Of a stretch of DNA of 39,024 nucleotides, positions 22,768 to 39,002 are shown one piece after another (the first letter of the stretch is position 1; every line of letters begins with the position of its first letter). A model generated the notes under the pieces. The model ran no database searches, was not told the DNA's origin, and saw only the letters and a program-made list of their open reading frames with translations. The stretch is from positions 1-39,024 of the IMG/VR virus record IMGVR_UViG_3300046724_000098; one strand, written 5' to 3'. The stretch comes from a virus. Both the position numbers and the translations under genes were made by a program.

Positions 22768-24738
22768 CGTCGTGCCCTTTCCATTGATCGATATCCTTCT
22801 GGCTTGCCCGCCGGTTGATCCACGACGTCGTGTCATCGCGTCTTTTCTGCCTTGCCCGGCAAAGACGAGATCGAGCGTCGCGGGAGAAATCTTCAGAGAC
22901 TTGGCGACTTGCAGCGCGTTGGGATTCGCCGGGACCGCCACGAGCGAAGTTTCGAGCAACTCCTGCTTCGTGAAGCGGAAGCCAACGGCTTTCCCTTCGC
23001 TGTCGTTGAGCGGTTCGTAATCGCTTGGCCGGAAGCCGACCGACACGGCACGCAGAATGCCTGCCTCGATCAGCCGACGAATTTCATCGATCCGAGGCGA
23101 GGTGCCTTCGGGCGCGAGCACGAGGTGGCCGCGCAACGTGTTTTTCTCGACGCGCAGATTGCGCCACTTGCCTATGGGAAAATCGGTGCGATGGTTGAAG
23201 AGCGCGATGGGGTTTTTCGTGAAGTTCGCGATATCCCACCCCGTCGCCGAGATAACATCGCCCATCCTGTCAACCGATTCATCGGAGAGGATAAACTCCA
23301 TGCCATTGACCGGCTCGACGTGCGTCTTGAACACGCGACCAGATGGCGGCGCACTCTTGCGGGTCGCTGGCTCGGCGTGCCGCTCGTCCCACACCATCTG
23401 GCACTGCTCGGCCGCCGCATCCGGGTCCATGTCGCCGTCATCGGTCAGTTCGTCGGTGCAGCGATCCATGAAGTCGTCGTAGGTTTCGTCGTCGTCAGGC
23501 GGATCGACGTCCTCGGCCTGCTTGACGGTCTTTGCCTTGTCCTTGTCGCGCCAGATCGTGAGACAGGCGGCGACCGCCTGATCCTGCGGGCGCTTATCCG
23601 CACCGGTGCCGACCATTTCCGGCACGCAGCGGCCCATGAACGCCTGTTGGGTTTCGTCCTTGTGCGGAGAGATCGGCATGGCTAGCTCCATTGCGCGGAT
23701 AAACTCGCCGAGCACTTGCGCGGCGCTTTTGGACTCGCTTGCTGGCTTTTTGCCTTTGCCGCCGGTGAACTTTTCGGCGGCTGCGATCAGCTTGGTGATT
23801 GAAATGTTGACGCGAGCGATCTTGACGTTTTTGTCGTCGTGCAAATTGTTGTCCTGGGCGTCGATGCCTAGCTGGCCAGCCCAGGTGTGATGGCCATCAA
23901 GGATGTAGTCGTCTTTCGAAATGACGAGGCGCTTGTAGAAACCGTCTTTCTTGATGCGCGCCATCTGCGTCGCAACTTTTGCGCCGCTGATCTCGGACTG
24001 GGTCGCGCGCAGATTGGCAGCGCGCTCGTGCCCCTTCTCGACCTCGTACCCCTGGCCTTTAAGGTACTTGATGAATTCCTTGGTTTGCTTCGCCGGGATA
24101 ACCGGCATCTCGACACGCGGAATGCCCTTGGTGTCGGCGCAGAACAGATTTGTCCCTGGCACACTCACGTTGCACAGGTTGAACACCGGCGCAGTCTCGC
24201 CTTGCGCCGCCATCTCGGCGGCGGTTTCACCGAGGCGCTTGATCAGCGTCGAGACTTGCTTGACCTGGGCGAGTTCGACCTTGCGGTCCTCGAACAGGGC
24301 GCGCTGCGCGTCGTAGACGTTGGACGTGTGGATTACGCCGTCCTTGACGTAGGCCGAGGCGGAATATCCAGGCCCCGGATGCTCGCGCTTGCCGCCATCG
24401 CTCGGCTTGTCGCCGCCGGTGCTGCCGCCACCGCCGCCGCCCCCACCGCCATCGGTCCACTTGCCGCTTTCGTCGCGCGGGTGCTTGTCCTCTTCGTACT
24501 CACGAGCGGCGCGAGAGTCTGCCGCACTCTTTTTTGAGGTGCCGCCGCCGAGCAGCAACGCGTCGAGATCGGCATCGGACAAGCCGAGCCGCTTGCCGAC
24601 GCTGCGGCCCACGCCTTCGGCTGCTTGGTGATCGCCCTGATCGAGGATCGACTGATGTAATTCGGCATCTTCGGCGCGATGGTTGCGCCAGAAGAAAAGC
24701 TCACGCGGGCTTTGCTTTTGCTTTCCCGACGTAGGCAT
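21343..24738 (-). CDS. Polyprotein: ParB-like domain, prohead protease and HK97-type major capsid protein
   Basis: 1131 residues in one open frame. Residues 81-105 carry the motif YEEDKHPRDESGKWTDGGGGG. Residues 195-330 resemble a ParB-like fold with ILDGHHTWAGQ at 279-289. Residues 350-455 hold two copies of a Cys-containing segment (FMGRC...IW and FMDRC...VW). Residues 465-620 are a U35-type prohead protease with His516 (LFNHRTDFPIGKW) and Ser566 (RAVSVGF). From Met658 the sequence is an HK97-fold capsid protein with an N-terminal coiled delta domain. The gene overlaps the preceding stop by 38 bases. Protease and capsid are separate genes in most phages. Confidence 0.92.
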   Translation of the reverse strand: MPTSGKQKQSPRELFFWRNHRAEDAELHQSILDQGDHQAAEGVGRSVGKRLGLSDADLDALLLGGGTSKKSAADSRAAREYEEDKHPRDESGKWTDGGGGGGGGGSTGGDKPSDGGKREHPGPGYSASAYVKDGVIHTSNVYDAQRALFEDRKVELAQVKQVSTLIKRLGETAAEMAAQGETAPVFNLCNVSVPGTNLFCADTKGIPRVEMPVIPAKQTKEFIKYLKGQGYEVEKGHERAANLRATQSEISGAKVATQMARIKKDGFYKRLVISKDDYILDGHHTWAGQLGIDAQDNNLHDDKNVKIARVNISITKLIAAAEKFTGGKGKKPASESKSAAQVLGEFIRAMELAMPISPHKDETQQAFMGRCVPEMVGTGADKRPQDQAVAACLTIWRDKDKAKTVKQAEDVDPPDDDETYDDFMDRCTDELTDDGDMDPDAAAEQCQMVWDERHAEPATRKSAPPSGRVFKTHVEPVNGMEFILSDESVDRMGDVISATGWDIANFTKNPIALFNHRTDFPIGKWRNLRVEKNTLRGHLVLAPEGTSPRIDEIRRLIEAGILRAVSVGFRPSDYEPLNDSEGKAVGFRFTKQELLETSLVAVPANPNALQVAKSLKISPATLDLVFAGQGRKDAMTRRRGSTGGQARRISINGKGTTMSLAQRVKDSETRLLALKDELRQHFDKVDDTNVTDDDLKRSDELNEKIDAEARTYTVLVESERHLGATSDDSRGGRTTALAVTNGRGSGHGTDTGIGNGVRPFSIAAKKIDPIEYLVRAGTVQLFAHLQRKPLDEIRQAIYGEDEPTRAVLDWATRAATAPAMTTVTGWAAELVQQIVVDFMALLLPKSIFPRLSAMGLSLTFGRNGKIIIPTRSITPTIAGSFVGEGAPIPVRQGAFTSQTLTPKKMAVITTWTREISEHSIPAIEGLLRNAIQEDTAVSLDAVLLDANAATVIRPAGILNGVTALTATTGGGFAALVGDIKQLSGALLTGTRGNVRNPAWLMNPQQVNSAGLVAAPGVGAFPFRDEISRGQLGGWPIIDSGTVPLGTVVAIDAADFVAVGGEAPRFEISDQATLHLEDTSPADIVGGVSPGTPAFPTKSMWQTDSLALRLIMPINWVIRRPGTVAWTQSVTW
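24434..24480 (-). repeat. 47-base direct repeat, copy 1 (HPRDESGKWTDGGG module)
   Basis: This segment is identical over 47 bases to 26178-26224 in the neighbouring gene on the same strand. It encodes RDESGKWTDGGGGG in both proteins, with the flanking Y(E/D)ExKHP also conserved in protein but less so in DNA. It may reflect recent module duplication, gene conversion, or recombination between adjacent virion genes. Confidence 0.9.
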
Positions 24739-26332
24739 TAAACCGATCCATCGTTTCCTTGTCCTTCAGGTTGAGCGCGCCATACCAATCGGTGCCGAGC
24801 AGGAGTTTTTTGCCGTACTTCGAATCCGCAATGGCCCAAAGAGCTTTTGGGTCGTTGCTTTGTGTCAGCTTGCGCAGCCGTTCAGCGTCGTCCGCGCTCA
24901 TCTCCCCGGTGCCTTCAACGCCGCCGCTTACCGTGAGGAAATCCGACGCGTTGTCCTCAGCCCATCGGTATTTTTCGCGGTCGTCCATCTGGTCCCAGTA
25001 TTCGCCCTGGTATTCCTCGACGCTGTCACTCAGATAATCCGGCGGTTCGATGTCGTCGGCCTTGTGCTCCGCTTCACGGTCGAACGCCTTGTCGATCACA
25101 CTCGTCAGCCCGTCGCGCATCTCAGGGGTCAACCGCTCGTGCGGCGCGACCGGTGGAATGCCCGGCAATGTTTCCTGCGCTGGATCGTGACCTGTCGGGT
25201 TCGTCAGCTTGTGATCGACAAACTGAACTTCAAGGTCGCCCCTGCCATCGCCGCCACCGGTGTCGTAGTTGAGCGAAACCGCATTCAGAATCTGCTCATC
25301 GGTAAATGGAATTTCAGATTGGCCCTGCTCCTCGCGGCTCTTGCGATAACCCGCGATGGCGTGCTCGGCCCAATCCATGGTGCCGCCCTTGTTGAAGTCT
25401 TCCGCGACGGCCGCCTTGGCGTCATCGAGGGGCTGGCCGCCATCGCGCCAATTATTGATCTCGCTATCCAAAAATTCGCTGCGCGTGCTGCGCATCCAGG
25501 CGCCTTCAATTTTCGACTGGTTGCTGCTCGGCAGATCGTCCCAGCTACCTGCAGCATCGCCGCTTCCGCCGCCACTGCTAAGCTTGTCGATCTCGTAATC
25601 CAGGTCACCGCGCAGGTTAGGCCAAGAACCGCGCTCGGGTACGTAGCCGTATTTTGCCCACGCGTAGCCGCCGACGTCGATGTCGGCGTGGACCTGCACC
25701 TTGTCGAGGCCAAGCTTCTGGTACATCGCAATGTTCGCTGCGAGCACTGTCTTGCCAATGCCCGCGCTCTGCGAACTGTCGTCCAACTTGAAATATTCGC
25801 TGATCGCTTTCTTTTGGGCGAAATCAATCGTGCGGGTGTACTCGCCAATCCCGTCGCCATTGGCATCCTTGAGAGTCCCGGCAACAACGAATTTGTCGTC
25901 GCCCTCTTCGTAGCGGATTCCCATCGAGGCATTGATGCCGCCAAGGAATTCCTTGCGAAACTCGGCAGGCGCTTCCGCGATACGCGAATTCCACACATCG
26001 ACAAATTTCTTCTGCTTGTCGGGATTTGACTGCGTCCCCGGATCGAGCCTGATTTCGTCTTTCGCAAAGTCGGCAATCTCGATTTTCTTCTTCTCGCCGC
26101 CAGCCTCGCTTCCACCCGGCGCAGCAGGCTTTGCTTCGGCTGCGGGCTTGTCGGTGCCAGTGCTGCTGCTGCCGCCACCGCCGCCCCCACCGCCATCGGT
26201 CCACTTGCCGCTTTCGTCGCGCGGATGCTTCGACTCGTCGTACTCGCGCAGCCGCGCGAGCGACTGCGCCTTGAGCGCCAGGAAGCGGGCGCGCCGCAGT
26301 GACTGATCAGAATCGCGCGCCAGTGCTTCCAT
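24701..26332 (-). CDS. Putative capsid-packaged protein with GNAT-like domain
   Basis: 543 residues. Residues 30-54 carry the same tag as the capsid polyprotein (YDESKHPRDESGKWTDGGGG), followed by a Gly/Ala/Pro linker. Residues 135-240 look like a GNAT acyltransferase fold: QSAGIG at 188-193 fits the Q/R-x-x-G-x-G acetyl-CoA loop, and GGYAWAKYGYVP at 221-232 fits the family's C-terminal strand. The remaining 300 residues are acidic and unassigned. Proteins with such tags next to capsid genes are often packaged and ejected. Enzyme activity is a prediction. Confidence 0.72.
   Translation of the reverse strand: MEALARDSDQSLRRARFLALKAQSLARLREYDESKHPRDESGKWTDGGGGGGGGSSSTGTDKPAAEAKPAAPGGSEAGGEKKKIEIADFAKDEIRLDPGTQSNPDKQKKFVDVWNSRIAEAPAEFRKEFLGGINASMGIRYEEGDDKFVVAGTLKDANGDGIGEYTRTIDFAQKKAISEYFKLDDSSQSAGIGKTVLAANIAMYQKLGLDKVQVHADIDVGGYAWAKYGYVPERGSWPNLRGDLDYEIDKLSSGGGSGDAAGSWDDLPSSNQSKIEGAWMRSTRSEFLDSEINNWRDGGQPLDDAKAAVAEDFNKGGTMDWAEHAIAGYRKSREEQGQSEIPFTDEQILNAVSLNYDTGGGDGRGDLEVQFVDHKLTNPTGHDPAQETLPGIPPVAPHERLTPEMRDGLTSVIDKAFDREAEHKADDIEPPDYLSDSVEEYQGEYWDQMDDREKYRWAEDNASDFLTVSGGVEGTGEMSADDAERLRKLTQSNDPKALWAIADSKYGKKLLLGTDWYGALNLKDKETMDRFNAYVGKAKAKPA
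26178..26224 (-). repeat. 47-base direct repeat, copy 2
   Basis: Second copy of the repeat described at 24434-24480, 1744 bases away, in the same reading frame relative to the tag motif. Both copies sit near the 5' end of their genes. Confidence 0.9.
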
Positions 26333-28209: not shown

Positions 28210-29813
28210 GCGATCAGCGTGTCGATGTCGATCTGCTTCGTCTTGCGATCCCGCGAACGCAGACCCATCACCATCGAGAGGGCCACCGCGCCGTCGATGC
28301 GGAAGCGGGCTTTTTCTTTGTCGAGCTTGCGGTTGCCCGCCGGGTCGAGGACGGCGACGGCGTTCGCCATATTCCAATTGAGGACTGGATTGTTCGGATG
28401 GATGAGCGACCGCTCAAGGATGCCGAGTTCGAGCGCATCAATTGCCGGAGCCATGTCCTTGAAGCCCTGGCCCCACGGCACAAGACGCAATCCATCGCCG
28501 CCCTTCTCCCCATCTTCATAGGCTTGCAGCCCAATCCGGTCGAACTCACGCAGGAGATCGTTGATGCGCCATCGGTCGTAGGCCAGCCCGCGCACCTTGT
28601 AGGTCTTTGTGAGATCGCCGACGAACATCGCGATGGTTTCCGGGTCGATGCTCTTGCCTGGGCTTGTGAGAAGATGCCCGGCCGCGACCCACTCACGATA
28701 GCGATGCGTGCCGGTGCCGAAGTCGCGGCCTGAATGCTCGATCAGGAGATCGAGCGGCTTCCAAAAGAACGGCCGGACGCGCGCTGGTTCGTCCGCCGAC
28801 GCCATGACCAGCGCGGTGAGATCGGCAACGCTGGAAAGATCGAGCGCAAGGTAGACTTCCTCGCCATCGATGAACTCGGCCTTCCCCGCGCAAGCCATCC
28901 ACTCGGCGCGCGAGATCAGCGATGCCACCGGGGCAACACGCTGGTTCAAGAACAGATTGCGCACCTTTGGTTCTTCCGCTGGCATGCGCATCGCCTTGGC
29001 GACGGCCGCGACCAAATCCTCGCGGTCGCGGAATTTTCCGAGGGCAGGGTTTGCTTTCTTCCACTGCTTCTCGTCGTCCAGTTCGCAATCTTCGTCGGCC
29101 GCGTAGAGATGGCAGACGATGGTCGGATCGATGCCCGCCAAGCCGTCATCGATCAACTTCGACAGGATGTGCTCGGGATCGTTCGACTGCGTCGAGATGA
29201 CGACGAACAGCGGCTCGGTGCGTGCGCCGAACGATGTGTCGAGTACGTCGTAGAGATCGCGGTTCTTCGCCTGCGCCAGTTCGTCGTAGATCACGACGCT
29301 CGGCATGTAGCCGTGCTTGGTCCCGGCCTCGGCCGACACCGCGCGATAGATCGAGCCGGTGGGAAGCCCGATCATCGTCTTTGTTGACGGGACGATCTCG
29401 ATCTTGGCGCGTAGCTCAGGCTCGTATTCGACAATCTGCTTTGCGAACTTGAACACGATGCTGGCTTGGTCGCGGTCGTTCGCGGCCGAGTAGATTTCGC
29501 CGTTGGGGATCGCCTCGGGACCGACGAGGTTCGCGAGCGCGATGCACGCGATTAGAGCGGTCTTCCCATTTTTTCTCGCGACTGACAGGATCGCCCTCCG
29601 CACCACGCGCTTTCTGCGCCGGTGCGGCTCATAGATGTCGCGGATAAAATCGCGTTCCCACTCGTCAAGCTTGAACGGCTTGCCCTGGCCGATGCCGCTC
29701 GGGATCGTCAGCTTCTCGATGAAGTCGATGACGTCTTGAGCGCGATCTCGGTCGCGGGTTATGCGCCCCTTAGCCGATGAGGCCGCTGAACTTGCCGCCA
29801 CCGTCGTCGCCAT
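28206..29813 (-). CDS. terL: Terminase large subunit
   Basis: About 535 residues if translation starts at ATG 29813, overlapping terS by 44 bases; a longer in-frame start at 29870 exists, and neither has a strong ribosome site. The ATPase domain shows Walker A SVARKNGKTAL, Walker B VVIYDEL and the coupling motif VISTQSNDP. The RNase-H-type nuclease has acidic residues in LALDLSSVADLTAL, AYDRWRIN and RFRIDGAVALSM. This is the terminase_1 type used by HK97-like heads. It translocates and cuts DNA at the portal. Confidence 0.95.
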   Translation of the reverse strand: MATTVAASSAASSAKGRITRDRDRAQDVIDFIEKLTIPSGIGQGKPFKLDEWERDFIRDIYEPHRRRKRVVRRAILSVARKNGKTALIACIALANLVGPEAIPNGEIYSAANDRDQASIVFKFAKQIVEYEPELRAKIEIVPSTKTMIGLPTGSIYRAVSAEAGTKHGYMPSVVIYDELAQAKNRDLYDVLDTSFGARTEPLFVVISTQSNDPEHILSKLIDDGLAGIDPTIVCHLYAADEDCELDDEKQWKKANPALGKFRDREDLVAAVAKAMRMPAEEPKVRNLFLNQRVAPVASLISRAEWMACAGKAEFIDGEEVYLALDLSSVADLTALVMASADEPARVRPFFWKPLDLLIEHSGRDFGTGTHRYREWVAAGHLLTSPGKSIDPETIAMFVGDLTKTYKVRGLAYDRWRINDLLREFDRIGLQAYEDGEKGGDGLRLVPWGQGFKDMAPAIDALELGILERSLIHPNNPVLNWNMANAVAVLDPAGNRKLDKEKARFRIDGAVALSMVMGLRSRDRKTKQIDIDTLIA

Positions 29814-30258
29814 TAGGCCCGGCAGCGATGCGCGCTCTTGCGGATGGGGTGAGTCCGAATTCGACGGCATATCTGACCATGTCTGCTGCGGCCCGTGCTG
29901 ACGTCAACACGAGCGGGTTCTGCATCGGCGTGCCGTTCTTCGCTCTGAGCATCAGAGCGTTGAGCATCGGATCACGCTTCCTCATTTCGGCGAGAGCTTC
30001 CTCGGCTAAGCGCCAGCGCGCGTAAGCTTGGCAGTAGGCCGCGAGCGGATTCACATCCACGATGGTGAGGAGGTTGAGGCGGCAAAGCTGCGCCGCGATG
30101 CGGTGCCATTCCTCCCGCGCGTGGTCTTCGAGAAACGGCGGCGGGCAAGGGACGTGCTCCGGGACTGTCGGCTGCACTTCGTTCGCGGGCAGGGGTCGCT
30201 TGCCTGGGTTGCCGCGCAACAGCTTCAGATGTGTCGGAATCGGCCGACGTCCGCGCAT
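29770..30258 (-). CDS. terS: Terminase small subunit, P27 family
   Basis: 162 residues from ATG 30258, chosen because it follows a good ribosome site (GAGGAGAGTTGAAATG) and begins with the family signature RGRRPIPTHLKLLRGNPGKR. The middle part (REEWHRIAAQLCRLNLLTIV, then AAYCQAYARWRLAEEAL) matches P27-type small terminases that recognise phage DNA for packaging. The frame extends 78 codons further upstream through Cys-rich sequence that overlaps the promoter region and is not coding. Confidence 0.93.
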   Translation of the reverse strand: MRGRRPIPTHLKLLRGNPGKRPLPANEVQPTVPEHVPCPPPFLEDHAREEWHRIAAQLCRLNLLTIVDVNPLAAYCQAYARWRLAEEALAEMRKRDPMLNALMLRAKNGTPMQNPLVLTSARAAADMVRYAVEFGLTPSARARIAAGPNGDDGGGKFSGLIG

Positions 30259-30377
30259 TTCAACTCTCCTCACAGTTGTTGTTTCCGGCCGCGCACCAAA
30301 GAGTGCGCCCGCGCTCGATTTCCGGCATTTGGAAACGCCAGCCGGACGATTGCAACAAAAAATGTAGTAATTACAGC

Positions 30378-30406
30378 ATGATAGGGGCAAAACAAGGCAC
30401 TTGCAA
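30378..30406 (-). promoter_or_regulatory. Probable promoter for the terminase/structural arm
   Basis: On the minus strand, TTGCAA (30406-30401), a 17-base spacer and TATCAT (30383-30378) form a sigma70-like promoter. TATCAT matches five of six consensus -10 bases. Transcription would begin near 30371, about 110 bases before terS. TTGCAA is self-complementary and also serves the plus-strand promoter. Confidence 0.6.
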
Positions 30407-30429
30407 AAGTGACATGGTGTCACTATATT
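30401..30429 (+). promoter_or_regulatory. Probable promoter for the right (early) arm
   Basis: TTGCAA (30401-30406), a 17-base spacer and TATATT (30424-30429) on the plus strand; -10 matches five of six consensus bases. The spacer contains a perfect operator-like inverted repeat. Predicted start near 30436, leaving a leader of about 400 bases before the first gene at 30846. Confidence 0.65.
30408..30424. promoter_or_regulatory. Operator-like inverted repeat AGTGACA-TGG-TGTCACT
   Basis: Perfect 7-base arms separated by three bases, lying between -35 and -10 of the plus-strand promoter. The core TGACA-N3-TGTCA recurs at 36356-36368 in another promoter-like site. A dimeric HTH repressor bound here would block RNA polymerase. 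The HTH protein at 37996-38202 is a candidate. Confidence 0.65.
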
Positions 30430-30790
30430 TATTGATGGTTGGACGGCAGTAGCCAGTCCAGTCGGTGACCTAGTGCAGTAGCCAGACGTCACCTAGGGCC
30501 TTCGGGGCCGACCACTCGCAAAGCGCCAGATACGGGCGCACCAGAGAACTCCCGACGGAACGCTGATCGCGCGACACCGGCAACGCCCACGGGCAATGCC
30601 ACCGACGTTGCTGCGGAAAAGTAGCTCCCTGTGCCCGGTGCCGCTCGCAAATGAGGACGATGGCGGGGTTCAAGTGGGGAAGCGAGGATTGATGCGAGCC
30701 GAAAACGGGGAACTGCAGAGCGCGGTGGCCATGTTGGCAATGCCAGAGAACGAAGCGCCCCACCAAAATGAAATGAGTAACATCAAACAC
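30430..30790. other. Noncoding region between the divergent arms, with short repeats (possible cos/pac site or leader RNA)
   Basis: No convincing gene in 360 bases: the frames present lack ribosome sites and read as random protein. The direct repeat GCAGTAGCCAG occurs at 30446-30456 and 30475-30485 (29-base period). GGTGAC/GTCACC arms lie at 30464-30469 and 30488-30493, and ACCTAG occurs twice. A small GGCC-TTCGG-GGCC hairpin follows. Upstream of terS is where packaging sites commonly lie, so cos/pac is possible. The region would also be transcribed from the plus-strand promoter, so a noncoding RNA is an alternative. Confidence 0.45.
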
Positions 30791-30814
30791 TGCGGCGGCT
30801 TTCGAGCCGCCGCA
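30791..30814 (+). terminator. GC-rich hairpin with TTCG loop before the first right-arm gene
   Basis: Perfect 10-base stem (TGCGGCGGCT / AGCCGCCGCA) closed by the loop TTCG, followed by ATTATTG rather than a T-run. It may be an attenuator, a processing or stabilising hairpin, or a terminator of the leader transcript. First member of a series of intergenic hairpins in this arm. Confidence 0.6.
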
Positions 30815-30817
30815 TTA

Positions 30818-30845
30818 TTGATGCATCTCACAACAGGAGTCACCC
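30818..30845 (+). promoter_or_regulatory. Leader element: TTGATGCATCTCACA box and GGAGTCACCC ribosome site
   Basis: The box TTGATGCATCTCACA (30818-30832) contains the palindrome GATGCATC. GGAGTCACCC (30836-30845) abuts the ATG at 30846. The same two elements recur before other right-arm genes. The ribosome site includes GAGTC, a GANTC sequence (the CcrM methylation site in alphaproteobacteria). Confidence 0.65.
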
Positions 30846-31100
30846 ATGACACGCAATCAAGCACTGCCCTACGTTTCGTTCTGCGTTGACGACGCGTTGT
30901 CGGAACGCAAGCTCGCCGACATGCCGTCGAATGCGCGGCTTGTCGGTTGGCAGTGCGGCTTCGAACCGCTGTTCGTCGCCGTGTGGTCCTACCTCGACGT
31001 CACGCTTGACGATGACGAGGCGGCCGAGATCGCAACCGATCTGCTGGCCGAAAAGAAATGGTTCGCAGGCGAGCCGACGTCACCCGACTACATCATCTGA
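30846..31100 (+). CDS. Small acidic protein of unknown function, first gene of the right arm
   Basis: 84 residues. Soluble and acidic in its second half (TLDDDEAAEIATDLLAEKK), with no motif I recognise. It is the first gene after the regulated promoter and has the standard GGAGTCACCC ribosome site, so it is probably expressed early. First genes of such arms often encode host-takeover proteins, but nothing in the sequence shows this directly. Confidence 0.8.
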   Translation: MTRNQALPYVSFCVDDALSERKLADMPSNARLVGWQCGFEPLFVAVWSYLDVTLDDDEAAEIATDLLAEKKWFAGEPTSPDYII

Positions 31101-31112
31101 GTCACATCAAAG

Positions 31113-31133
31113 CGCGGCCCCGAGCGGGCCGCG
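31113..31133 (+). terminator. Intergenic GC hairpin
   Basis: Stem CGCGGCCC (31113-31120) pairs with GGGCCGCG (31126-31133), loop of five bases. No T-run follows. It precedes the box and mini-hairpin of the next leader, like the hairpin at 35081-35101. Confidence 0.6.
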
Positions 31134-31136
31134 TCA

Positions 31137-31196
31137 TTGATGCATCTCGCATCCGCCGCTGCAAACGGCGTCCAATCCAAAAACGGAGTCACCCCA
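31137..31196 (+). promoter_or_regulatory. Composite leader of the MoxR gene (box, TGCAAA mini-hairpin, GGAGTCACC)
   Basis: TTGATGCATCTCGCA at 31137-31151; mini-hairpin CGCCG-CTGCAAA-CGGCG at 31154-31170; GGAGTCACC at 31185-31193; ATG at 31197. A near-copy with the same order occurs at 35105-35162. An upstream in-frame start at 31137 would translate through this leader and is rejected. Confidence 0.7.
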
Positions 31197-32231
31197 ATGG
31201 CAACCGCCATCCTTCCTGAAGTCAAGCCGGTCACCATCGCGTTCGCGGCGGTGCTGCTTCAACACTACATCGGCAAGCGCAAGTCCGCGATGCTCTGGGG
31301 GCCTCCCGGCATCGGCAAGTCGGCCATCGTCTACCAGATCGCAGCGATACTCGGCTGGAAGGTGATCGACTTTCGCGCCAACATTCGTGAGCCGGTTGAC
31401 GTTCGCGGCATCCCGGTGCCCGATCTGAAAACCGGCACGACGCGCTGGCTCGTTCCTGACGAGCTTCCGCGCGTTGATCGCGACGGCGAGCACGGCATTC
31501 TCTTCCTTGACGAGATCAACACGGCCAGCCCGCAGATGATGGCCGTGCTCTTCCAACTGATCTGGGAGCGCCGGGTTGGCGACTACAAGCTCCCTGACGG
31601 CTGGGTGATCGTCGCGGCAGGCAATCGCGTGAGCGACCGTGCCGCCGCCCAGCGGATGCCGACCGCTCTGCGCAATCGCTTCGCGCACATCTACGTCGAG
31701 GTTGACGTGAAAGCGTGGTGCGATTGGGCGACGACGGCGAACGTCGCGCCCGAGCTTGTCGCCCTCATTCGGCTTCGCGGCAAAGACGTGCTGCACATCA
31801 TGCCGCGCGGCGACGAGAACGCGTTCCCGACGCCCCGGTCGCTGACCGATGCGGCCGAGTACGTGGACGCACCGAAGGATGTGCGGATGCAGCTTTTCGC
31901 TGGCTGCATCGGCGACGCGGCGGCGGCCGAGCTTGATGGCTTCATCGAACTCTATCGCAGCCTCGGCTCGCTGGAAGACATCGTGCGCGATCCGAACAGC
32001 GCGCCCGTGCCGACTGAGCCGTCGAGCCGCTACGCCGTCTGCACCGGCCTCGGCCGGATGGCCGACCGCAAGAACCTGCAGAACATCGTCACGTATGTGA
32101 AGCGCCTGAACCATCGCGAGAGCGAGCTTCTGGTGATGCACGACGCGACGTTGCGCAATCCCAAGCTCAAGGAAACGACGACCTACGGCAAGTGGGCCGT
32201 CGAGAATCAAGACCTGATCGTGCAGATGTAA
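31197..32231 (+). CDS. MoxR-type AAA+ ATPase
   Basis: 344 residues from ATG 31197, placed after GGAGTCACCCCA. Walker A GPPGIGKS lies at about residues 35-42 and Walker B ILFLDEIN at about 100-107, with a sensor/arginine-finger region around MPTALRNRFAHIYVE. Members of the MoxR branch usually work with a VWA-domain partner in protein remodelling. Here a DUF3150 protein and a VWA/metallopeptidase-like protein follow directly, so the three probably act as a unit. This trio is known in phages but its substrate is not established. Confidence 0.92.
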   Translation: MATAILPEVKPVTIAFAAVLLQHYIGKRKSAMLWGPPGIGKSAIVYQIAAILGWKVIDFRANIREPVDVRGIPVPDLKTGTTRWLVPDELPRVDRDGEHGILFLDEINTASPQMMAVLFQLIWERRVGDYKLPDGWVIVAAGNRVSDRAAAQRMPTALRNRFAHIYVEVDVKAWCDWATTANVAPELVALIRLRGKDVLHIMPRGDENAFPTPRSLTDAAEYVDAPKDVRMQLFAGCIGDAAAAELDGFIELYRSLGSLEDIVRDPNSAPVPTEPSSRYAVCTGLGRMADRKNLQNIVTYVKRLNHRESELLVMHDATLRNPKLKETTTYGKWAVENQDLIVQM

Positions 32232-32238
32232 TGCACGG

Positions 32239-32260
32239 GGCGGCGCGCGAATGCGCCGCC
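32239..32260 (+). terminator. Intergenic hairpin with T-rich tail
   Basis: Stem GGCGGCGC / GCGCCGCC, loop GCGAAT, followed by ATTGTTTTCT. It is the best intrinsic-terminator candidate of the series, though the operon appears to continue, so partial termination is likely. The GCGAAT loop recurs in the hairpin at 33189-33208. Confidence 0.6.
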
Positions 32261-32289
32261 ATTGTTTTCTGAAACGGAGTCACCCACCC

Positions 32290-33183
32290 ATGTCTAAGAA
32301 AATCGCCACGCCGCTCGCCCGCAAGGCCGTGCTGGTGTCTGTCACCATCTCGCAGTGGACGGCGCGCAAAAAAGACAAGCGCGTCACCGCCGAGACGAAC
32401 CGCCGCCATCACGCATCCGACGATGCTGGCACCTATCACAAGCTGCTGATCCAGAAAGAGCGGCTTGCGGAGATCAACGCACTCGTGTCGGCGGCGCGGG
32501 CGCTGCACTACGAACTGACGCACCCGTGGGCCGACGAAGGCCCGCGCGTTCTGCCCAACGCGTTGTTCGCCAAGTTCTCGGAGAAATTCCGCAAGCTCAA
32601 GCGCGAGTTCGACACCGCTGCGGATGACTTCGCTCGCGACTATCCGCAGTACATCGCCGAGCGCAAAGTTGCGCTCAACGGTCTGTTCAGCGAGGCCGAC
32701 TATCCGCCGGTCGAGCAGATCAGGAGCAAGTTCAAGCTCGACATGACGATCCTGCCGTTTCCCGACTCGGCTGACTTCCGCGCCGACCTGGATGACGACA
32801 CGGTCGCCGACATCAAGCGCGAGTTGGAGCAAACAACGGCTCGCGTCGGCAACGATACGCTGCGCCACACTGCGGAGCGGATCACCGAAGCTGTCGGCCA
32901 CATGGCCGAGAAGTTGCGGGAGTACAATTCGGGCAATCTCGGCAAAGACGGCAAGCGAAATTTCTTTCTCAACTCGCTGGTCGATAACGTGCGCGACCTT
33001 GCCGAGTTGCTGCCCGCCTTCAACCTCACCGACGACCCGAAGCTCAACGCGATCACCAAGCGCATCTTGAAAGAGTTGTGCGCGGAAGATGCGGCCGAGC
33101 TTCGGAAGAATGACGCCGCTCGCGAGTCGGTCAAAAAGTCGGCCGACGAGATCGTGAAAGCGGTTTCGCAATTCCTGGCTTGA
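32290..33183 (+). CDS. DUF3150-family protein
   Basis: 297 residues from ATG 32290, behind GGAGTCACCC. The N-terminal pattern (VSVTISQWTARKKDKRVT, then HYELTHPWADEGPRVLP and ALNGLFSEADYPP) is typical of the phage DUF3150 family. It is mainly helical, without enzymatic motifs. It lies between the MoxR ATPase and the VWA protein, as these families often do, and may be an adaptor or the remodelled substrate. Confidence 0.88.
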   Translation: MSKKIATPLARKAVLVSVTISQWTARKKDKRVTAETNRRHHASDDAGTYHKLLIQKERLAEINALVSAARALHYELTHPWADEGPRVLPNALFAKFSEKFRKLKREFDTAADDFARDYPQYIAERKVALNGLFSEADYPPVEQIRSKFKLDMTILPFPDSADFRADLDDDTVADIKRELEQTTARVGNDTLRHTAERITEAVGHMAEKLREYNSGNLGKDGKRNFFLNSLVDNVRDLAELLPAFNLTDDPKLNAITKRILKELCAEDAAELRKNDAARESVKKSADEIVKAVSQFLA

Positions 33184-33188
33184 TCTAT

Positions 33189-33208
33189 CCCCCGCGCGAA
33201 TGCGGGGG
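33189..33208 (+). terminator. Intergenic GC hairpin
   Basis: Stem CCCCCGC / GCGGGGG with loop GCGAAT, between the DUF3150 and VWA genes. No T-run follows. Belongs to the same intergenic hairpin series. Confidence 0.55.
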
Positions 33209-33230
33209 CTTCCACCAAACGGAGTCACCC

Positions 33231-34763
33231 ATGTCAGACCTTCTCACCACCACCGCAATGCAGCGCGTCCAGCGGGCGCGCAGCGAACTGATCATGTCGC
33301 GGCGGTTCTACGGTGTGCTCGTCTCGAACGTCGAGCCGATCATCACCCGCAAGCACGAGACTGCGGCGACGAACGGACGCCAGCACTTCTGGAATCCCGA
33401 CTACATCGCCACGCTGAAACAGGACAACGTGTTGTTCGTGCAGGCGCACGAGAGCGAGCACGATGCCCGACATCACAGCACACGGCGCAACGGTCGCGAC
33501 CCGGAGCGATGGAATAGGGCTTGCGACTACGGGATCAACATCGATCTCGTTGACGAAGGCTTCGTGCCGCCGCCGGGCATCTTGCTCGACGCGAGGTTTC
33601 GCGGCATGAGCGCCGAGGAAATCTACCGGTGCCTTGAGCTTGACGAGGCCGCGCAGCAACAGCAGCAACAGCCGCAGCCGCAGGAAGGCGACGGCGATGC
33701 CGACGAAGACGAGCAGCCGCAGTCCAACGGCGACGACAGCAACGACGCTGGCGACGACCAGGGCAAGAACCAGGGCGACGACGCGAGCGACGACGCTGGC
33801 GACGACCAGGGCGAGGGCGGTTCGGGCGACGCCGACGATGGTGACGCTGATCAGGACGCAGGTTCTGGCGGCGATGCCGACGACGGCGAAGGCCAGGGCG
33901 GCGACGCCGAGGGCGAAGGCTCTGACGCTGAAGGCGGCAACGGTGCTGGCAACGGCAGCGGCGACGCCGAGGGCGACGACCAGGGCGAAGGCTCTGGCGC
34001 GGGCGACGCGGACGGCGAGGGCGCTGGCAGCAAGCCGGTCGTCGGCGACGTCGGCGGCTGCGGCGAGGTGCTCGACGCGAGCGACGAGCCGGGTGATCTC
34101 TCCGAGCAAGATGCCAAGTGGGAGCGGATCACGCGGCAAGCGGCATCGCTGGCGAAGGCTATCGGGCAGTGCCCCGGCCACATCACGCGCGAGATCGAAC
34201 GGTCGAATAATCCGACCCAAGACTGGCGCGAGGTGCTGCGGTCCTATTTCGATCAAGGTGCGCTTCGCACCGAGACCTGGAATAGGCCGAACCGTCGCCA
34301 CATCGGCCGGGGCGTAGTCCTGCCCGGCTCGCAGCGCGACGGCGTGAACAAGGCGTGCTTTCTGATCGATACCAGCGGATCGATCTACAGCGACCCGGTG
34401 GCGTTGCAGCTTGTTCGCGACGAGGCGCAGGCCGCGCTTGACGACCGTATTGTTGACGAGGCCGTCGTGATCTACGGCGACACGGCGGTCACGCGTGTTG
34501 ACACCTACCGCACGGGCGACGAGATCGAGTTCGACCCGCGCGGCGGTGGCGGCACCGACATGAAGCCGCTGTTTGAGTACGTCGCGGAAGAGCACGACGA
34601 CGCATCGCTGATCGTCTGCTTCACCGACCTTGAGATCGGCGACCCCGGCGTCGAGCCGCATTGCCCGACGCTGTTCGCCGTGACCGGCTATCCGCAGCGG
34701 GTGCGCGAGCTTATCGCGAACGCCCCGTGGGGTGCGCCGTGCATCGACGTCGGTGCGCACTGA
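33231..34763 (+). CDS. VWA-like protein with metallopeptidase-like N-terminus (DUF2201 type)
   Basis: 510 residues from ATG 33231, directly after GGAGTCACCC. Residues 1-140 resemble the putative metallopeptidase domain of DUF2201 proteins, with HESEH fitting HExxH. Residues 145-290 are a very acidic low-complexity linker (Gln, Asp, Glu, Gly), as in CobT-type proteins. The C-terminal 180 residues are a VWA-like domain with a MIDAS motif DTSGS (within ACFLIDTSGSIY). It is the expected partner of the MoxR ATPase. Whether the HExxH site is catalytic is unknown. Confidence 0.9.
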   Translation: MSDLLTTTAMQRVQRARSELIMSRRFYGVLVSNVEPIITRKHETAATNGRQHFWNPDYIATLKQDNVLFVQAHESEHDARHHSTRRNGRDPERWNRACDYGINIDLVDEGFVPPPGILLDARFRGMSAEEIYRCLELDEAAQQQQQQPQPQEGDGDADEDEQPQSNGDDSNDAGDDQGKNQGDDASDDAGDDQGEGGSGDADDGDADQDAGSGGDADDGEGQGGDAEGEGSDAEGGNGAGNGSGDAEGDDQGEGSGAGDADGEGAGSKPVVGDVGGCGEVLDASDEPGDLSEQDAKWERITRQAASLAKAIGQCPGHITREIERSNNPTQDWREVLRSYFDQGALRTETWNRPNRRHIGRGVVLPGSQRDGVNKACFLIDTSGSIYSDPVALQLVRDEAQAALDDRIVDEAVVIYGDTAVTRVDTYRTGDEIEFDPRGGGGTDMKPLFEYVAEEHDDASLIVCFTDLEIGDPGVEPHCPTLFAVTGYPQRVRELIANAPWGAPCIDVGAH

Positions 34764-34768
34764 AAACT

Positions 34769-34795
34769 GCCGGGCGGCCCGCGTGGCCGCCCGGC
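34769..34795 (+). terminator. Strong intergenic hairpin after the VWA gene
   Basis: Perfect 11-base stem GCCGGGCGGCC / GGCCGCCCGGC with loop CGCGT, followed by CCTTTGC. It is the strongest stem in the series and lies just after the last gene of the MoxR/DUF3150/VWA unit. Confidence 0.65.
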
Positions 34796-34830
34796 CCTTT
34801 GCAAGCCCACTCTCACAAACGGAGTCACCA

Positions 34831-35067
34831 ATGAGCTACTGCCCTTGGACAAAAAATTTACACACCACGCACGAGGCCGGGAGACGGAAAGCCACAAAAC
34901 GGACGCACAAGCCGAAGCCCGCGCAGCCATCGAGGTTCTCGACGCATAGCCACTTCAAGCAAGAGATCGGACTCGGATCGCGCCCAGACGTTTGTGCAAA
35001 TTGCCGAATGCCGTTCGAAGACCACTACAACGGCGCGTGTCCGAAAGACGAAAACGAGAAAAGTTAG
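34831..35067 (+). CDS. Small basic protein with Cys motif
   Basis: 78 residues from ATG 34831, right after GGAGTCACCA. The N-terminal half is rich in Lys, Arg and His (HEAGRRKATKRTHKPKP). The C-terminal half has CANCRMPFEDHYNGACP, a possible single zinc-binding site. No known family; nucleic-acid binding is plausible from charge but unproven. A longer upstream frame is rejected because it lies across the hairpin and lacks a ribosome site. Confidence 0.75.
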   Translation: MSYCPWTKNLHTTHEAGRRKATKRTHKPKPAQPSRFSTHSHFKQEIGLGSRPDVCANCRMPFEDHYNGACPKDENEKS

Positions 35068-35080
35068 AGTCGTATCAAAG

Positions 35081-35101
35081 CGCCGCCCCATGCGGGCGGC
35101 G
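35081..35101 (+). terminator. Intergenic GC hairpin
   Basis: Stem CGCCGCCC (35081-35088) pairs with GGGCGGCG (35094-35101), loop CATGC. It is followed by the TTGATGCATCTCGCA box, as after the hairpin at 31113-31133. Confidence 0.6.
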
Positions 35102-35104
35102 TCG

Positions 35105-35162
35105 TTGATGCATCTCGCATCACGCCGGTGCAAAACGGCGAACACATGAAACGGAGTCACCC
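35105..35162 (+). promoter_or_regulatory. Composite leader, near-copy of the MoxR leader
   Basis: TTGATGCATCTCGCA (35105-35119), mini-hairpin CGCCG-GTGCAAAA-CGGCG (35123-35140), then GGAGTCACCC (35153-35162) abutting ATG 35163. Order and most bases match 31137-31196. Confidence 0.7.
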
Positions 35163-35681
35163 ATGTCACCGAAGCTTGAAGCCATTGCCGCCTACGATGC
35201 CGCGCTGAAGCGACCGGACAAGGCCGATTGGCGCGCCGTCGCGAAGCTCTTGCGCGACGTTCTCCCGCAACCGCGCGTCGGCAAAACGATGCCGCGATCC
35301 GATGGCCACACCGAAATCGCCGACTACGTCACGAAAGGCAAATCGAACCGACGCGGCCCGTCGATGGTCGTCACGTTCGAAGATGACACGCAGGTTCGCA
35401 TGTCGTTTTCGTCGCAGGAAGGCAAGCCGATCAACGCGGGGCTGGGCCTGCGCGTCGTGTGCTCGGGCTATCGCACGAAGCGGGCTTTCCCGATCAGCGA
35501 TCTGAAGGCCATCGCCAAGCTTGGCGTGCCGTCGATCCGCAGCGCGCATGCCGAGCGGGACGGCGACGTCGTCGCCACGTTCGACCCTATCGAGTGCAAC
35601 GGTTACACCGCGCCCTATCGGCAAGGCATGCCGTATGAGAAGTGGCGTTCGCGTCGCGACCGGTTGCACGTTGCAGCTTAA
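35163..35681 (+). CDS. Protein of unknown function (172 residues)
   Basis: 172 residues from ATG 35163 with the standard ribosome site. It looks like a small alpha/beta protein: an N-terminal helix (LEAIAAYDAALKRPDKADW), a middle beta region (RGPSMVVTFEDDTQVRMSF), and a C-terminal basic tail. No motif recognised. It starts a second group of tightly coupled small genes. Confidence 0.78.
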   Translation: MSPKLEAIAAYDAALKRPDKADWRAVAKLLRDVLPQPRVGKTMPRSDGHTEIADYVTKGKSNRRGPSMVVTFEDDTQVRMSFSSQEGKPINAGLGLRVVCSGYRTKRAFPISDLKAIAKLGVPSIRSAHAERDGDVVATFDPIECNGYTAPYRQGMPYEKWRSRRDRLHVAA

Positions 35682-35695
35682 AAGGAATCGCCCCA

Positions 35696-35977
35696 ATGAC
35701 AACGAGACTAGAGCAACTCAAGGAAGCGTTCGCGCGCAATCTGGCGCGGACGCTCGCCGACGATCCGAGCTACTACGCCTGGAAAGCCGAAGAGCTTCCG
35801 GACGTCACGGCCCGCATGCTTGCGGCCATCGACCGTGCGGGCGGGCTTGGCGGCATCAACATCCAGTCGCGCACGTTCACGCGCACCGCCCGCGAGTTCG
35901 GTATCAAGAACACGTACAAGGCATGGGCCGCGTGGCTCGCCGCCGATGTGAAAGAGGAGTCGGACAATGGACTGTGA
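35696..35977 (+). CDS. Small helical protein of unknown function
   Basis: 93 residues from ATG 35696 after AAAGGAATCGCCCC, a diverged form of the common ribosome site that still holds a GANTC site (GAATC). Mostly helical (RLEQLKEAFARNLARTLADD), with a C-terminal part RTFTRTAREFGIKNTYKAW that could be a helix-turn-helix-like or DNA-contacting segment. It overlaps the next gene by 11 bases. Confidence 0.78.
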   Translation: MTTRLEQLKEAFARNLARTLADDPSYYAWKAEELPDVTARMLAAIDRAGGLGGINIQSRTFTRTAREFGIKNTYKAWAAWLAADVKEESDNGL

Positions 35978-36140
35978 CGCCCACACCAAAGACGACGGCT
36001 CGTGGTGGGAGCACGATGCGCGCGGCATTCCGCTTTGCCGCGTTTGCGCCAAGTGCAAGCGCCGCAAGCTTGCGCACTACCGGCCCGAGGTGCTGTCCGA
36101 TCCCAACTACGTGGCGGACGAACCGATTGATGAAGACTGA
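35967..36140 (+). CDS. 57-residue CxxCxxC mini-protein
   Basis: ATG 35967 to TGA 36140, with GAGGAGTC upstream; it overlaps the previous gene. The motif CRVCAKCKRRKL and the following HYRPEVLSDPNY are recurrent in small phage proteins. It is probably a zinc-knuckle protein. Function unknown. Confidence 0.8.
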   Translation: MDCDAHTKDDGSWWEHDARGIPLCRVCAKCKRRKLAHYRPEVLSDPNYVADEPIDED

Positions 36141-36146
36141 AAAAGA

Positions 36147-36179
36147 GAAAGCCGGGGACCGTGAGGCCGCCCGGCTTTC
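36147..36179 (+). terminator. Probable terminator after the first right-arm gene group
   Basis: Ten-base perfect stem GAAAGCCGGG / CCCGGCTTTC with a 13-base loop. It lies seven bases after the stop of the CxxCxxC gene and starts the only sizeable noncoding gap on the right arm, which contains a new promoter-like site. This supports a transcription-unit boundary. Confidence 0.6.
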
Positions 36180-36194
36180 CCGTTGGAATGCGGA

Positions 36195-36343: not shown

Positions 36344-36372
36344 TTGACCCGAGGGTGACAATTTGTCATACA
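36344..36372 (+). promoter_or_regulatory. Promoter-like site with second operator copy (TGACA-ATT-TGTCA)
   Basis: TTGACC (36344-36349), a 17-base spacer and a weak -10 CATACA (36367-36372). The inverted repeat TGACA-ATT-TGTCA (36356-36368) has the same core and spacing as the operator at 30408-30424 and again falls between the promoter elements. It would drive the second gene group starting at 36404. Confidence 0.55.
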
Positions 36373-36403: not shown

Positions 36404-36631
36404 ATGACCACCACGACACAGAATCCAAACTGCAGCGGCAACCATTGCCGCTCCACCACCGGCGAGGTTCGCGTCTACCCGCTCGGCGGCGGCGGCAACT
36501 TGATCCTCTGCATCGCTTGCTGGGCGCATGAGAACCGCTACCGGTTCGAGCGCGGGCGCGAGACGCGCGAGCCTGCGAACTGGCCCCAGGTCGATTGGGC
36601 CACAGCGGAAGTCTACGGAGGTGCGTCATGA
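36404..36631 (+). CDS. Small Cys-containing phage protein of unknown function
   Basis: 75 residues from ATG 36404 after GGAGTCACCG. Conserved-looking features are CSGNHCRSTTGEVRVYP near the N-terminus and LILCIACWAHENRYR in the middle; four Cys residues could bind one zinc. Similar small proteins are recurrent in alphaproteobacterial phages as I recall, without known function. It is coupled to the next gene by ATGA. Confidence 0.82.
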   Translation: MTTTTQNPNCSGNHCRSTTGEVRVYPLGGGGNLILCIACWAHENRYRFERGRETREPANWPQVDWATAEVYGGAS

Positions 36632-36999
36632 TCACGGCGAAGACGCAACCATTCTGTCATTGGTGCGGCAAACCGCTGCGCAAGCACGCCGTGCGACGCC
36701 ACCCGCCGGGTCAGTTGGGGTTTAACGATTCAACTCTGCGCACTCTCGCGGATTGTCAGCGTCGCGAGAACCAGAAAGTGATCAGCGTGCAGTACCGCTG
36801 GGACTACGACGACGGCGACAAAATCCCGAGCACGAAGCGCATCCACAGCTACGCTGTTTGGGACGGCGAGACGTATCAGGCGGTGCTCGAATTCTTCTGC
36901 ACCAACGACTGCGCCATGTCGTTAGGCCACGCGGCAGCGAAGCATCACAACATCGTTGGCAAGGCTTTCAACGAGGCCACGCGAAAGGCAAAGCCATGA
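36628..36999 (+). CDS. Zinc-ribbon-like protein of unknown function
   Basis: 123 residues from ATG 36628, overlapping the previous stop (ATGA). CHWCGKPLRKH at the N-terminus and FFCTNDCAMSLGH near the C-terminus give two Cys pairs typical of a split zinc ribbon. The middle is beta-rich. No enzyme motif. Its stop overlaps the next start (ATGA). Confidence 0.82.
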   Translation: MITAKTQPFCHWCGKPLRKHAVRRHPPGQLGFNDSTLRTLADCQRRENQKVISVQYRWDYDDGDKIPSTKRIHSYAVWDGETYQAVLEFFCTNDCAMSLGHAAAKHHNIVGKAFNEATRKAKP

Positions 37000-37199
37000 C
37001 CGACCGTGAAGTTCTCGCCATGCTGCGCGGTTCGCCGAGCGGCACCACCGAAGCGATGGCGGCGTTGCACGGCATCGACCGCGCCCAGCTTGATCGGCTT
37101 GTTGCCGCAGGCCGGGCACGCGTCCAGATGCAGGCGCTCCACAAGCCACGCATCGTCAAGTTCGCCACGTTCTTTTTCAACTCTCAACAGGAAACATGA
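36996..37199 (+). CDS. Small protein of unknown function (67 residues)
   Basis: ATG 36996 overlaps the previous stop. The first 45 residues are helical (TDREVLAMLRGSPSGTTEAM, then HGIDRAQLDRLVAAGR) and could form a winged or simple helix-turn-helix. The C-terminus is basic and aromatic. No family recognised. It ends within the start of the next gene. Confidence 0.75.
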   Translation: MTDREVLAMLRGSPSGTTEAMAALHGIDRAQLDRLVAAGRARVQMQALHKPRIVKFATFFFNSQQET

Positions 37200-37459
37200 C
37201 CATGACACTCACACGTCTCGCCATCGTGCTGGCGTTGTTCGCGCCAGCCGATGCACTCGCACAGTCCAGCACTTTCTACGACGCGTCCGGCCGCGTGTCG
37301 GGTCGCTCGGCCACCGACAGCGGCGGCGCGACCACGTTCTACGATCCGAGCGGGCGCGTCACGAACCGCGCATCTATCGATAGCCAGGGCACCACGACGA
37401 TCTATGACGCAAGCGGGCGCAAGGTCGGAACTGATCCAACGCAGGAGAAACGACGATGA
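37196..37459 (+). CDS. Secreted YD-repeat-like peptide
   Basis: 87 residues. A signal peptide is evident (LTRLAIVLALFAPADALAQ, cleavage after AQ or nearby). The mature part holds three copies of a motif of the form TFYDASGRVxxRxxxDxxG, like short YD/RHS-type repeats. Start is ATG 37196 or ATG 37202; the second has the better spacing from AGGA. A phage-encoded exported repeat peptide of this size could alter the host envelope, which is inference. Confidence 0.8.
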   Translation: MTMTLTRLAIVLALFAPADALAQSSTFYDASGRVSGRSATDSGGATTFYDPSGRVTNRASIDSQGTTTIYDASGRKVGTDPTQEKRR

Positions 37460-37668
37460 CGATGCACGAGTGGATCACGGGCAGGGGCAGGCGCGGCCTG
37501 CTTTTGCCGTTGAGCTTGCCGGGCATGCTGTGCATCGGCTGCGTCATCCTGCCCCCGCTCCTGGTGCTCACCATCGTCGGTCCCGGTCCCGATGACGAAC
37601 GGCCGCCTGATCCGTGGCGCAAGCGCCAGCGCATGCGGGCCGTGCGGCGGAAGGATGTTCGACCATGA
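37456..37668 (+). CDS. Small membrane protein with one transmembrane helix
   Basis: 70 residues from ATG 37456, overlapping the previous stop. Residues 15-42 form a hydrophobic helix (LLLPLSLPGMLCIGCVILPP then LLVLTIV), followed by a basic tail rich in Arg. It could be a holin-like or envelope protein, but there is no adjacent endolysin and no way to tell from sequence. Confidence 0.72.
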   Translation: MTMHEWITGRGRRGLLLPLSLPGMLCIGCVILPPLLVLTIVGPGPDDERPPDPWRKRQRMRAVRRKDVRP

Positions 37669-37847
37669 CCTGGGAAACCCTGAACGCTGTCCGCACCGCG
37701 ACCCGGTGCGAGTTCTCTGCCGCGCTCGCTGCGCGGCACGTCTTTGTGCGACTGCTAAGCGGGCGTTGGGGCCGATGCCTCGACGCGCCGCCGCTCAACG
37801 CCGTGCATGTGCGCGGCAACGTCTACCATCTCGCGGAGGGCCGGTGA
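37665..37847 (+). CDS. Small protein of unknown function (60 residues)
   Basis: ATG 37665 overlaps the previous stop (ATGA), which supports this start. Basic, mixed composition with a helix (WETLNAVRTATRCEFSAALA) and a strand near the end (AVHVRGNVYHLAEG). No family recognised. Confidence 0.7.
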   Translation: MTWETLNAVRTATRCEFSAALAARHVFVRLLSGRWGRCLDAPPLNAVHVRGNVYHLAEGR

Positions 37848-37995: not shown

Positions 37996-38202
37996 ATGAA
38001 GCACACCGCGCAAACCAACGCCGACTTCGTCCGCGCGGCGCGTGAGCGGCTCGGCATCACGCAGGCCGAGTTCGGCGAGCGGCTCGGCGTATCTAAGCGT
38101 ACCGTCATTCGCTGGGAGCAAGGCAGCGTGCTCAAGCGGCGCGACCGCGTCGCCATCACGCTGCTGATCGAGCAACCGGTCGTATCGCAGAGGATCACAT
38201 GA
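37996..38202 (+). CDS. XRE-family helix-turn-helix regulator
   Basis: 68 residues from ATG 37996 behind GAGGAG. A single HTH domain covers nearly the whole protein (FVRAARERLGITQAEFGERL, then GVSKRTVIRWEQG). No dimerisation or protease domain, so it is closer to a Cro-like than a CI-like regulator. It may bind the TGACA-N3-TGTCA sites at 30408 and 36356. That link is inference. ATGA overlap with the radical SAM gene. Confidence 0.9.
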   Translation: MKHTAQTNADFVRAARERLGITQAEFGERLGVSKRTVIRWEQGSVLKRRDRVAITLLIEQPVVSQRIT

Positions 38203-39002
38203 TCACGCTCAACGACGACGGCGTGTCCGTCAAAGGCTGCAGGATCATCTACGCACCGAAAGGGCAGGCGGGGGAATACGCCCCGCTTGCCACCAATCCG
38301 TATCGCGGCTGCGGCCACGGCTGCGCGTACTGCTACGTGCCGCTGGTGACGCATCAGGATCGCAAAGAGTTCGACGCGGGCGCGATCCCGCGTCGCGACT
38401 ACCTCACCTCGCTGTGGGCCGACGCCGCCAAGTACAAGGCGCTCGGCTGTCGCGAACAGGTCATGCTGTCGTTCACCACCGACCCGTACAATCCGAGCGA
38501 CATTTCGCTGACGCGGCCGACGCTCGACACGCTGATCGCGCACGGGCTGGCGATCTGCACCCTGACCAAGGGCGGCACGCGGGCGCTGCGCGACGTCGAG
38601 CTATTCCGCCCGGAGCGCGATGCGTTTGCATCCACGCTCACCTCGCTTGACGACCGCTTCTCGCAGAAGTGGGAGCGCAACGCGGCGCTGCCTGCCGACC
38701 GGATCGCGGCGCTGCGCACCTTCCACGAGCGCGGCATCTTCACCTGGGTTTCGCTTGAGCCGACGCTCGACGTCGATGCGTCGATTGCGATTGTCGAAGC
38801 AACCCACGACTTCATTGATCTCTTCAAGGTCGGCCGGGTGAACTACCTGCCGATGACAAAGACGACCGACTGGCGCGACTACACGGTGCGCATGCTCGAC
38901 GTGCTCAATCGTGTCGGTGCGCGCCACTACATCAAGCGCGACCTGCAAGGCTACCTGCCGCCGAACTATCCCAACGCACTGCGCGTCCCGCAGCATCACT
39001 GA
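38199..39002 (+). CDS. Radical SAM protein, SplB-like
   Basis: 267 residues from ATG 38199. The radical SAM cluster motif C38-x3-C42-x2-C45 (RGCGHGCAYCYVP) is intact, followed by FTTDPYNPSD and a later SLEPTLDVD segment typical of the COG1533 (SplB-like) branch. No obvious C-terminal domain beyond the barrel. Relatives include spore photoproduct lyase-type enzymes, but this short form is uncharacterised and need not repair DNA. Its translational coupling to an HTH regulator is notable. Confidence 0.9.
   Translation: MITLNDDGVSVKGCRIIYAPKGQAGEYAPLATNPYRGCGHGCAYCYVPLVTHQDRKEFDAGAIPRRDYLTSLWADAAKYKALGCREQVMLSFTTDPYNPSDISLTRPTLDTLIAHGLAICTLTKGGTRALRDVELFRPERDAFASTLTSLDDRFSQKWERNAALPADRIAALRTFHERGIFTWVSLEPTLDVDASIAIVEATHDFIDLFKVGRVNYLPMTKTTDWRDYTVRMLDVLNRVGARHYIKRDLQGYLPPNYPNALRVPQHH

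Follow-up and report, generated by a model that had tools for sequence, protein, structure and literature searches.

The window, that is, the whole stretch of 39,024 bases that was analysed, carries in its right arm a rightward promoter, PR, followed by a structured leader and the operon of a MoxR-like ATPase and, further to the right, a second promoter-like site, a group of small genes and the gene of a 68-residue XRE-type helix-turn-helix (HTH) protein (Table 1); the gene to the left of PR encodes the terminase small subunit (terS). The 7-base inverted repeat that an earlier note had placed in the spacer of this plus-strand promoter lies there, between TTGCAA and TATATT with a spacing of 17, and its core, TGACA-N3-TGTCA, occurs exactly once more in the window, as the same note had reported. 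A third exact copy is absent, both copies lie outside genes, and the numerous matches within coding sequence that had been named as evidence against operators were not found. First-order Markov simulations of the window (500 runs) gave an expectation of 0.02 exact copies, and two or more were obtained in about one run of the 500; the reversed but uncomplemented pattern has no match in the window. When two mismatches were allowed, 11 copies were found against 11.0 expected, and this lack of excess indicates that only the two exact copies are meaningful. Regarding the promoters themselves, PR looks like a host-type promoter in the promoter scan; the description of the second site as promoter-like stands in part, since TTGACC is present, and TTGAC precedes the operator at nearly equal distance in two relatives (as TTGACG in both), but the -10, CATACA, is poor and the scan calls no promoter there.

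Table 1. Features of the window and operator positions in two related contigs (G003, G013)
Feature	Position	Strand	Remarks
Candidate leftward -10, TATCAT	30378..30383	-	Operator 1 centred at about -45 from the start; transcription would run towards terS, terL and the left arm
Rightward promoter PR	30401..30429	+	-35 TTGCAA 30401-30406, 17-bp spacer, -10 TATATT 30424-30429
Operator 1, AGTGACA-TGG-TGTCACT	30408..30424	.	17-bp dyad within the PR spacer; core 30410-30422
Leader or noncoding RNA, ~390 nt	30436..30823	+	Covarying helices; start inferred from the -10
Conserved RNA core, CCCGGUGCCGC...GGACGAUGGCGGGGU	30616..30726	+	Covarying helix
Leader-closing hairpin, AUCAA/GC-rich stem/UUGAUG	30781..30823	+	No U tract; same kind before 31197 and 35163
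84-residue conserved phage protein	30846..31100	+	First gene after the leader in the window; absent in L026
MoxR-like AAA+ ATPase (phrog_1297)	31197..32231	+	Operon behind the leader in genomes where readable
DUF2201 putative metallopeptidase/VWA-like protein	33180..34763	+	MoxR-ATPase operon
HTH-operon promoter, weak	36344..36372	+	TTGACC 36344-36349, 17 bp, CATACA 36367-36372
Operator 2, GTGACAATTTGTCAT	36355..36369	.	Core 36356-36368
Small genes (about six) that separate operator 2 from the HTH gene	36404..37847	+	36404-36631, 36628-36999, 36996-37199, 37196-37459, 37456-37668, 37665-37847; overlapping or close-packed; called by eye from ORFs
XRE-family HTH protein, 68 residues	37996..38202	+	Proposed regulator of both operators
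Radical SAM protein	38199..39002	+	Follows the HTH gene; same order in G013
G003, operators	22824-22838; 31178-31192		Leader promoter; before the HTH homologue (alignment from 31217)
G013, operators	68826-68840; 62054-62068		Leader promoter; before the HTH homologue (alignment 61816-62004, minus strand)

Relatives were gathered by a MoxR-like ATPase search together with a search for a noncoding core pattern; six distinct ones have a homologous leader promoter (L005, L026, L031, L035, L037 and L038; seven genomes with the window) and share 69-86% nucleotide identity with the window over most coding stretches, and L003, L004 and L009, identical over the aligned parts, are not counted as independent genomes. 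A dyad-like site occupies the spacer of the homologous promoter in all seven: AGTGACATGGTGTCACT in the window, CATGACATTTTGTCAGT in L026, GGTGACGTTTTGGCACT in L005, GGTGCCATTTTGGCACT in L031, GGTGACATTGTGGCACT in L035, GGTGCAGTTTTGGCACT in L037 and GGTGCCAGTTTGGCACT in L038, with the consensus GGTG[A/C]CA-N3-TG[G/T]CAC. The promoter elements CTTG...TA[TC]AT are conserved across these genomes, and the core positions of the operator are conserved as well as the -35 and the -10. In L031 and L038, C..G replaces the A..T of the window at paired positions, with a change in both arms, so that the dyad survives substitution; the left arm has decayed in L005 (GTGACG) and L037 (GTGCAG), where the dyad is weak, and it is hence not strict. 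The fragments L006, L007 and L008, also MoxR relatives, show neither the leader promoter nor the operator nor an HTH homologue.

Two relatives have contigs long enough for the operators to be counted, G003 and G013 (the latter being the contig of L038), and each holds exactly two matches to GTGMCA-N3-TGKCAC with at most one mismatch, the second of them directly upstream of a homologue of the 68-residue protein. The expectation for an exact operator match in the short stretch before the HTH gene, scaled from the window simulation, is of the order of 1e-5 per genome. The homologues are 65-69% identical to the window protein, and the three proteins share one and the same recognition helix, VSKRTVIRWEQG. 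The HTH gene opens its operon in G003 and G013; in the window, by contrast, site 2 is followed first by about six small genes and only then by the HTH gene and the radical SAM gene; since the HTH gene of the window lies 1.6 kb downstream of site 2, autoregulation there needs one long transcript.

The 68-residue protein matches Pfam HTH_3 (E 1.7e-9; 38 bits against a curated cut-off of 23) and is the sole HTH_3 protein of the window, in keeping with its earlier designation as the visible candidate, and likewise of G003; the three further HTH_3 proteins of G013 lie at least 10 kb from the operators of that contig. Its structure model is a five-helix bundle of the XRE fold (mean pLDDT 85), whose nearest solved folds include HigA2, operator-binding P22 c2, Aca10 and Aca2, with no significant match (Foldseek, best E 0.05); such scores, obtained with a predicted structure, are typical of a small fold that is widespread and do not indicate a function. 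No Aca chain occurs among the PDB sequence matches to the protein at E <= 0.01. Neither the HTH protein nor a match to the covariance model of the leader RNA turned up in 397 genomes from the order to which a Bradyrhizobium genome belongs.

These data point, with a probability of about 0.8, to both palindromes being operators of the phage's own XRE-type protein, which as a dimer would repress two promoters, its own and PR. The idea of a single dimeric regulator at both sites, probably this HTH protein, gains support from the pairing of the two sites with the HTH gene in the relatives. Beyond what had been proposed earlier, site 2 appears to head the HTH protein's own operon, and site 1 would govern the promoter that drives a conserved structured leader RNA. 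Read most simply from its position, the second site would be the regulator's own promoter. The location of the operator within a spacer of the normal 17 bp argues for repression: a dimer bound between the -35 and the -10 would block RNA polymerase at either promoter, at site 2 as negative autoregulation that also covers the small genes of the same operon, and at site 1 by closing PR, from which the ~390-nt structured leader and then the MoxR-ATPase/DUF3150/VWA operon would be transcribed. After entry, both promoters would fire until the regulator had built up and closed both of them, in the manner of a Cro- or Aca-type timer. Binding, dimerisation, repression and timing at both operators are what we infer for the HTH protein, and both halves of the circuit are in view in only three genomes, all from one phage group. 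An uncultivated group of phages would then offer a complete circuit of two promoters that can be tested, with the regulator, the operator code and both targets in hand.

The bound dimer may, as a weaker inference from the arrangement of the sequence, also help a divergent leftward promoter. In lambda, OR2 stands to PRM in a geometry like that of operator 1 to the leftward -10 here, and a regulator whose main role is that of a dual switch, of the kind exerted by lambda CI at OR2, with repression of PR and activation of a divergent promoter for the packaging and structural genes, is a doubtful but possible alternative. In its favour, five of the seven genomes have a minus-strand -10-like hexamer with operator 1 centred at -43 (L005, L031, L035 and L038) or -45 (the window), the hexamers comprising TATAAC, TATAAG, TCTAAT and TATCAT, and leftward genes follow in most genomes. 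Nevertheless, no comparable -10 was found in L026 and only a weak TGTAAA, by eye, in L037, a rightward gene may intervene between the promoter and terS in L035, and the -10 matches are short and A+T-rich; the leftward -35 elements are mostly poor, but that of the window, TTGCAA, is not.

It is unlikely that the sites bind a host regulator, through which the phage taps a host signal with the HTH protein as a bystander: in favour of this, the promoters look host-type, but against it, site 2 stands immediately ahead of the HTH gene in two relatives, so that site and phage protein go together. A lysogeny repressor of the CI type, with the two sites as immunity operators, is very unlikely; a pair of promoters with an operator each recalls an immunity region and an integrase is present in G013, but a tyrosine integrase was not found in the window, G001 or G003, the separate HTH protein of G013 (a 210-residue frame) that lies near the integrase is ~33 kb from the operators, and the 68-residue protein consists of the HTH domain only, lacking the C-terminal oligomerisation/autocleavage domain of lambda-type CI repressors. 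That the spacer is conserved as a part of the promoter, for instance through DNA shape, and that the second copy arose by chance is least plausible, even though the -35, the spacer and the -10 are conserved together over 30 bp, in view of the double changes that preserve the dyad in two genomes and of a second, independent copy ahead of the HTH gene or its operon in each of the three searchable genomes, at a chance expectation of 0.02 per window.

The ~400 bases downstream of PR are strongly conserved among the relatives and contain no conserved plus-strand reading frame (at most 14 residues in L005). The alignment of the RNA core, with 112 positions and seven genomes, has 25 pairs with 97% of cells paired and five pairs changed on both sides, and its covariation score of 0.227 compares with 0.132 in shuffles (none of 500 reach 0.227) and at most 0.06 when slid. 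The folding energies of single sequences are weak (z -1.5 to -1.8), so that the case for RNA structure rests on covariation. The two hairpins around GCAGUAGC in the 5' part of the leader vary in sequence and largely keep their shape; this was shown sequence by sequence, since for the window and L026 the 5' half of the whole-length alignment is not reliable. Among 61 loci searched, the covariance model of the core matched only these phages, whose sequences score 82-127 bits on the model built from them; in genome contigs, the best of the 99 scored among the pattern matches listed reached 21 bits, a chance level, and a viral match to the core pattern, L034, was also assigned to chance by the model. 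No Rfam covariance model matched 29500-39024 at E <= 1, no tRNA or tmRNA was found in the window, and the open-licence literature yielded no described RNA or regulator of like kind.

Wherever the sequence can be read, the MoxR-ATPase operon is found downstream of the RNA; L037 ends inside the RNA. Given this position and a closing hairpin without a U tract, for which no intrinsic terminator is claimed, the RNA is more likely an operon leader than a separately terminated RNA. The structured leader family is apparently new, and the regulator-operator pair is of an ordinary kind; it is their combination, in which a conserved RNA missing from Rfam is linked to a MoxR-ATPase/VWA module, that deserves to be followed. 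The odds seem about even for the fuller picture, in which an undescribed leader RNA family (~270-390 nt, core CCCGGUGCCGC...GGACGAUGGCGGGGU) would have its own promoter, repressible by an Aca/Cro-like HTH protein that regulates itself, and would work either in trans or in cis, in the latter case on the MoxR-ATPase/VWA operon through antitermination or control of translation, and in which the same dimer might also switch on the leftward packaging genes.

Several known systems resemble parts of this arrangement. The operators of P22 c2 and of lambda CI at OR1-OR2 are dyads of similar length that overlap a rightward promoter, and the possible activating position for a leftward promoter is shared here, although there is one operator per promoter region rather than three and no C-terminal domain for cooperativity. 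The put RNA of HK022, too, is structured and forms the very beginning of a phage operon transcript, where it acts in cis to carry RNA polymerase past terminators; the leader described here is likewise a structured RNA at the start of such a transcript, but it is several times longer and no sequence relation is known. GOLLD, ROOL and OLE, large RNAs of phages or bacteria, are structured noncoding RNAs, in part phage-encoded and of unknown function (PMC12286853), as is this one, which differs in having no Rfam match, in being shorter, and in its fixed position upstream of one operon rather than near tRNA genes.

Across their families, Aca proteins have been reported to repress their cognate promoters, whose core contains an inverted repeat (PMC9410906). 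As in the acr-aca operons with their Aca autoregulators (PMC9410906, PMC8434428), a small HTH protein is found here whose own operon has an inverted repeat inside its predicted core promoter, the promoter and the HTH gene are separated by several small genes in the window, and the nearer folds to the HTH model include Aca10 and Aca2. Differences are that no known acr gene was recognised (NCBIfam and PADLOC, neither being an acr collection), that the HTH gene comes first in two relatives, and that a further promoter, far away and followed by a structured leader, seems to be under the control of the HTH protein as well. The small genes tested match no defence family (PADLOC) and no named NCBIfam family beyond a weak YD/RHS repeat; if the HTH protein is Aca-like, those at 36404-37847 become candidate counter-defence genes, by position only. 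One of them (37196-37459) has a signal-peptide-like start and YD/RHS repeats. The Cro-type lytic repressors of lambdoid and telomere phages are also tiny HTH proteins with very few operators, and the single copy of the Cro operator in the PY54 genome indicates that such economy of sites is known (PMC4488713); in contrast to these, the HTH gene is neither adjacent to nor divergent from a cI gene, the leftward neighbour of PR is the terminase small subunit gene rather than a divergent cI under a shared operator, and the target appears to be the MoxR-ATPase operon with its leader RNA, not cI.

Some further observations concern the surrounding sequence. A sigma-54 promoter reading of TGGCAC...TTGC on the minus strand was rejected, the spacing being by eye ~3 too short. 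MoxR-like ATPase relatives are common in phages (810 phage records), and in the more distant relative L007 two CCGCAGTAGCGAG hairpins (positions 700-800) stand before the ATPase gene and resemble the leader's GCAGUAGC hairpin; the RNA core is absent there. The contig G013 (69.7 kb) looks temperate, with a tyrosine integrase and a separate, larger HTH protein at 28350-31653. In the left arm of the window, a direct repeat of ~120 bp, 84.6% identical, occupies 24404-24522 and 26145-26267. Intergenic hairpins of the form AUCAA / GC-rich stem / UUGAUGCAUC stand before three genes (30781-30823, 31099-31194 and 35067-35162) and recur in the relatives; two of these regions are a ~96-bp repeat, 83% identical, and each of the three hairpins is followed by GGAGTCACC before the start codon, a combination that may be a processing or translation element.
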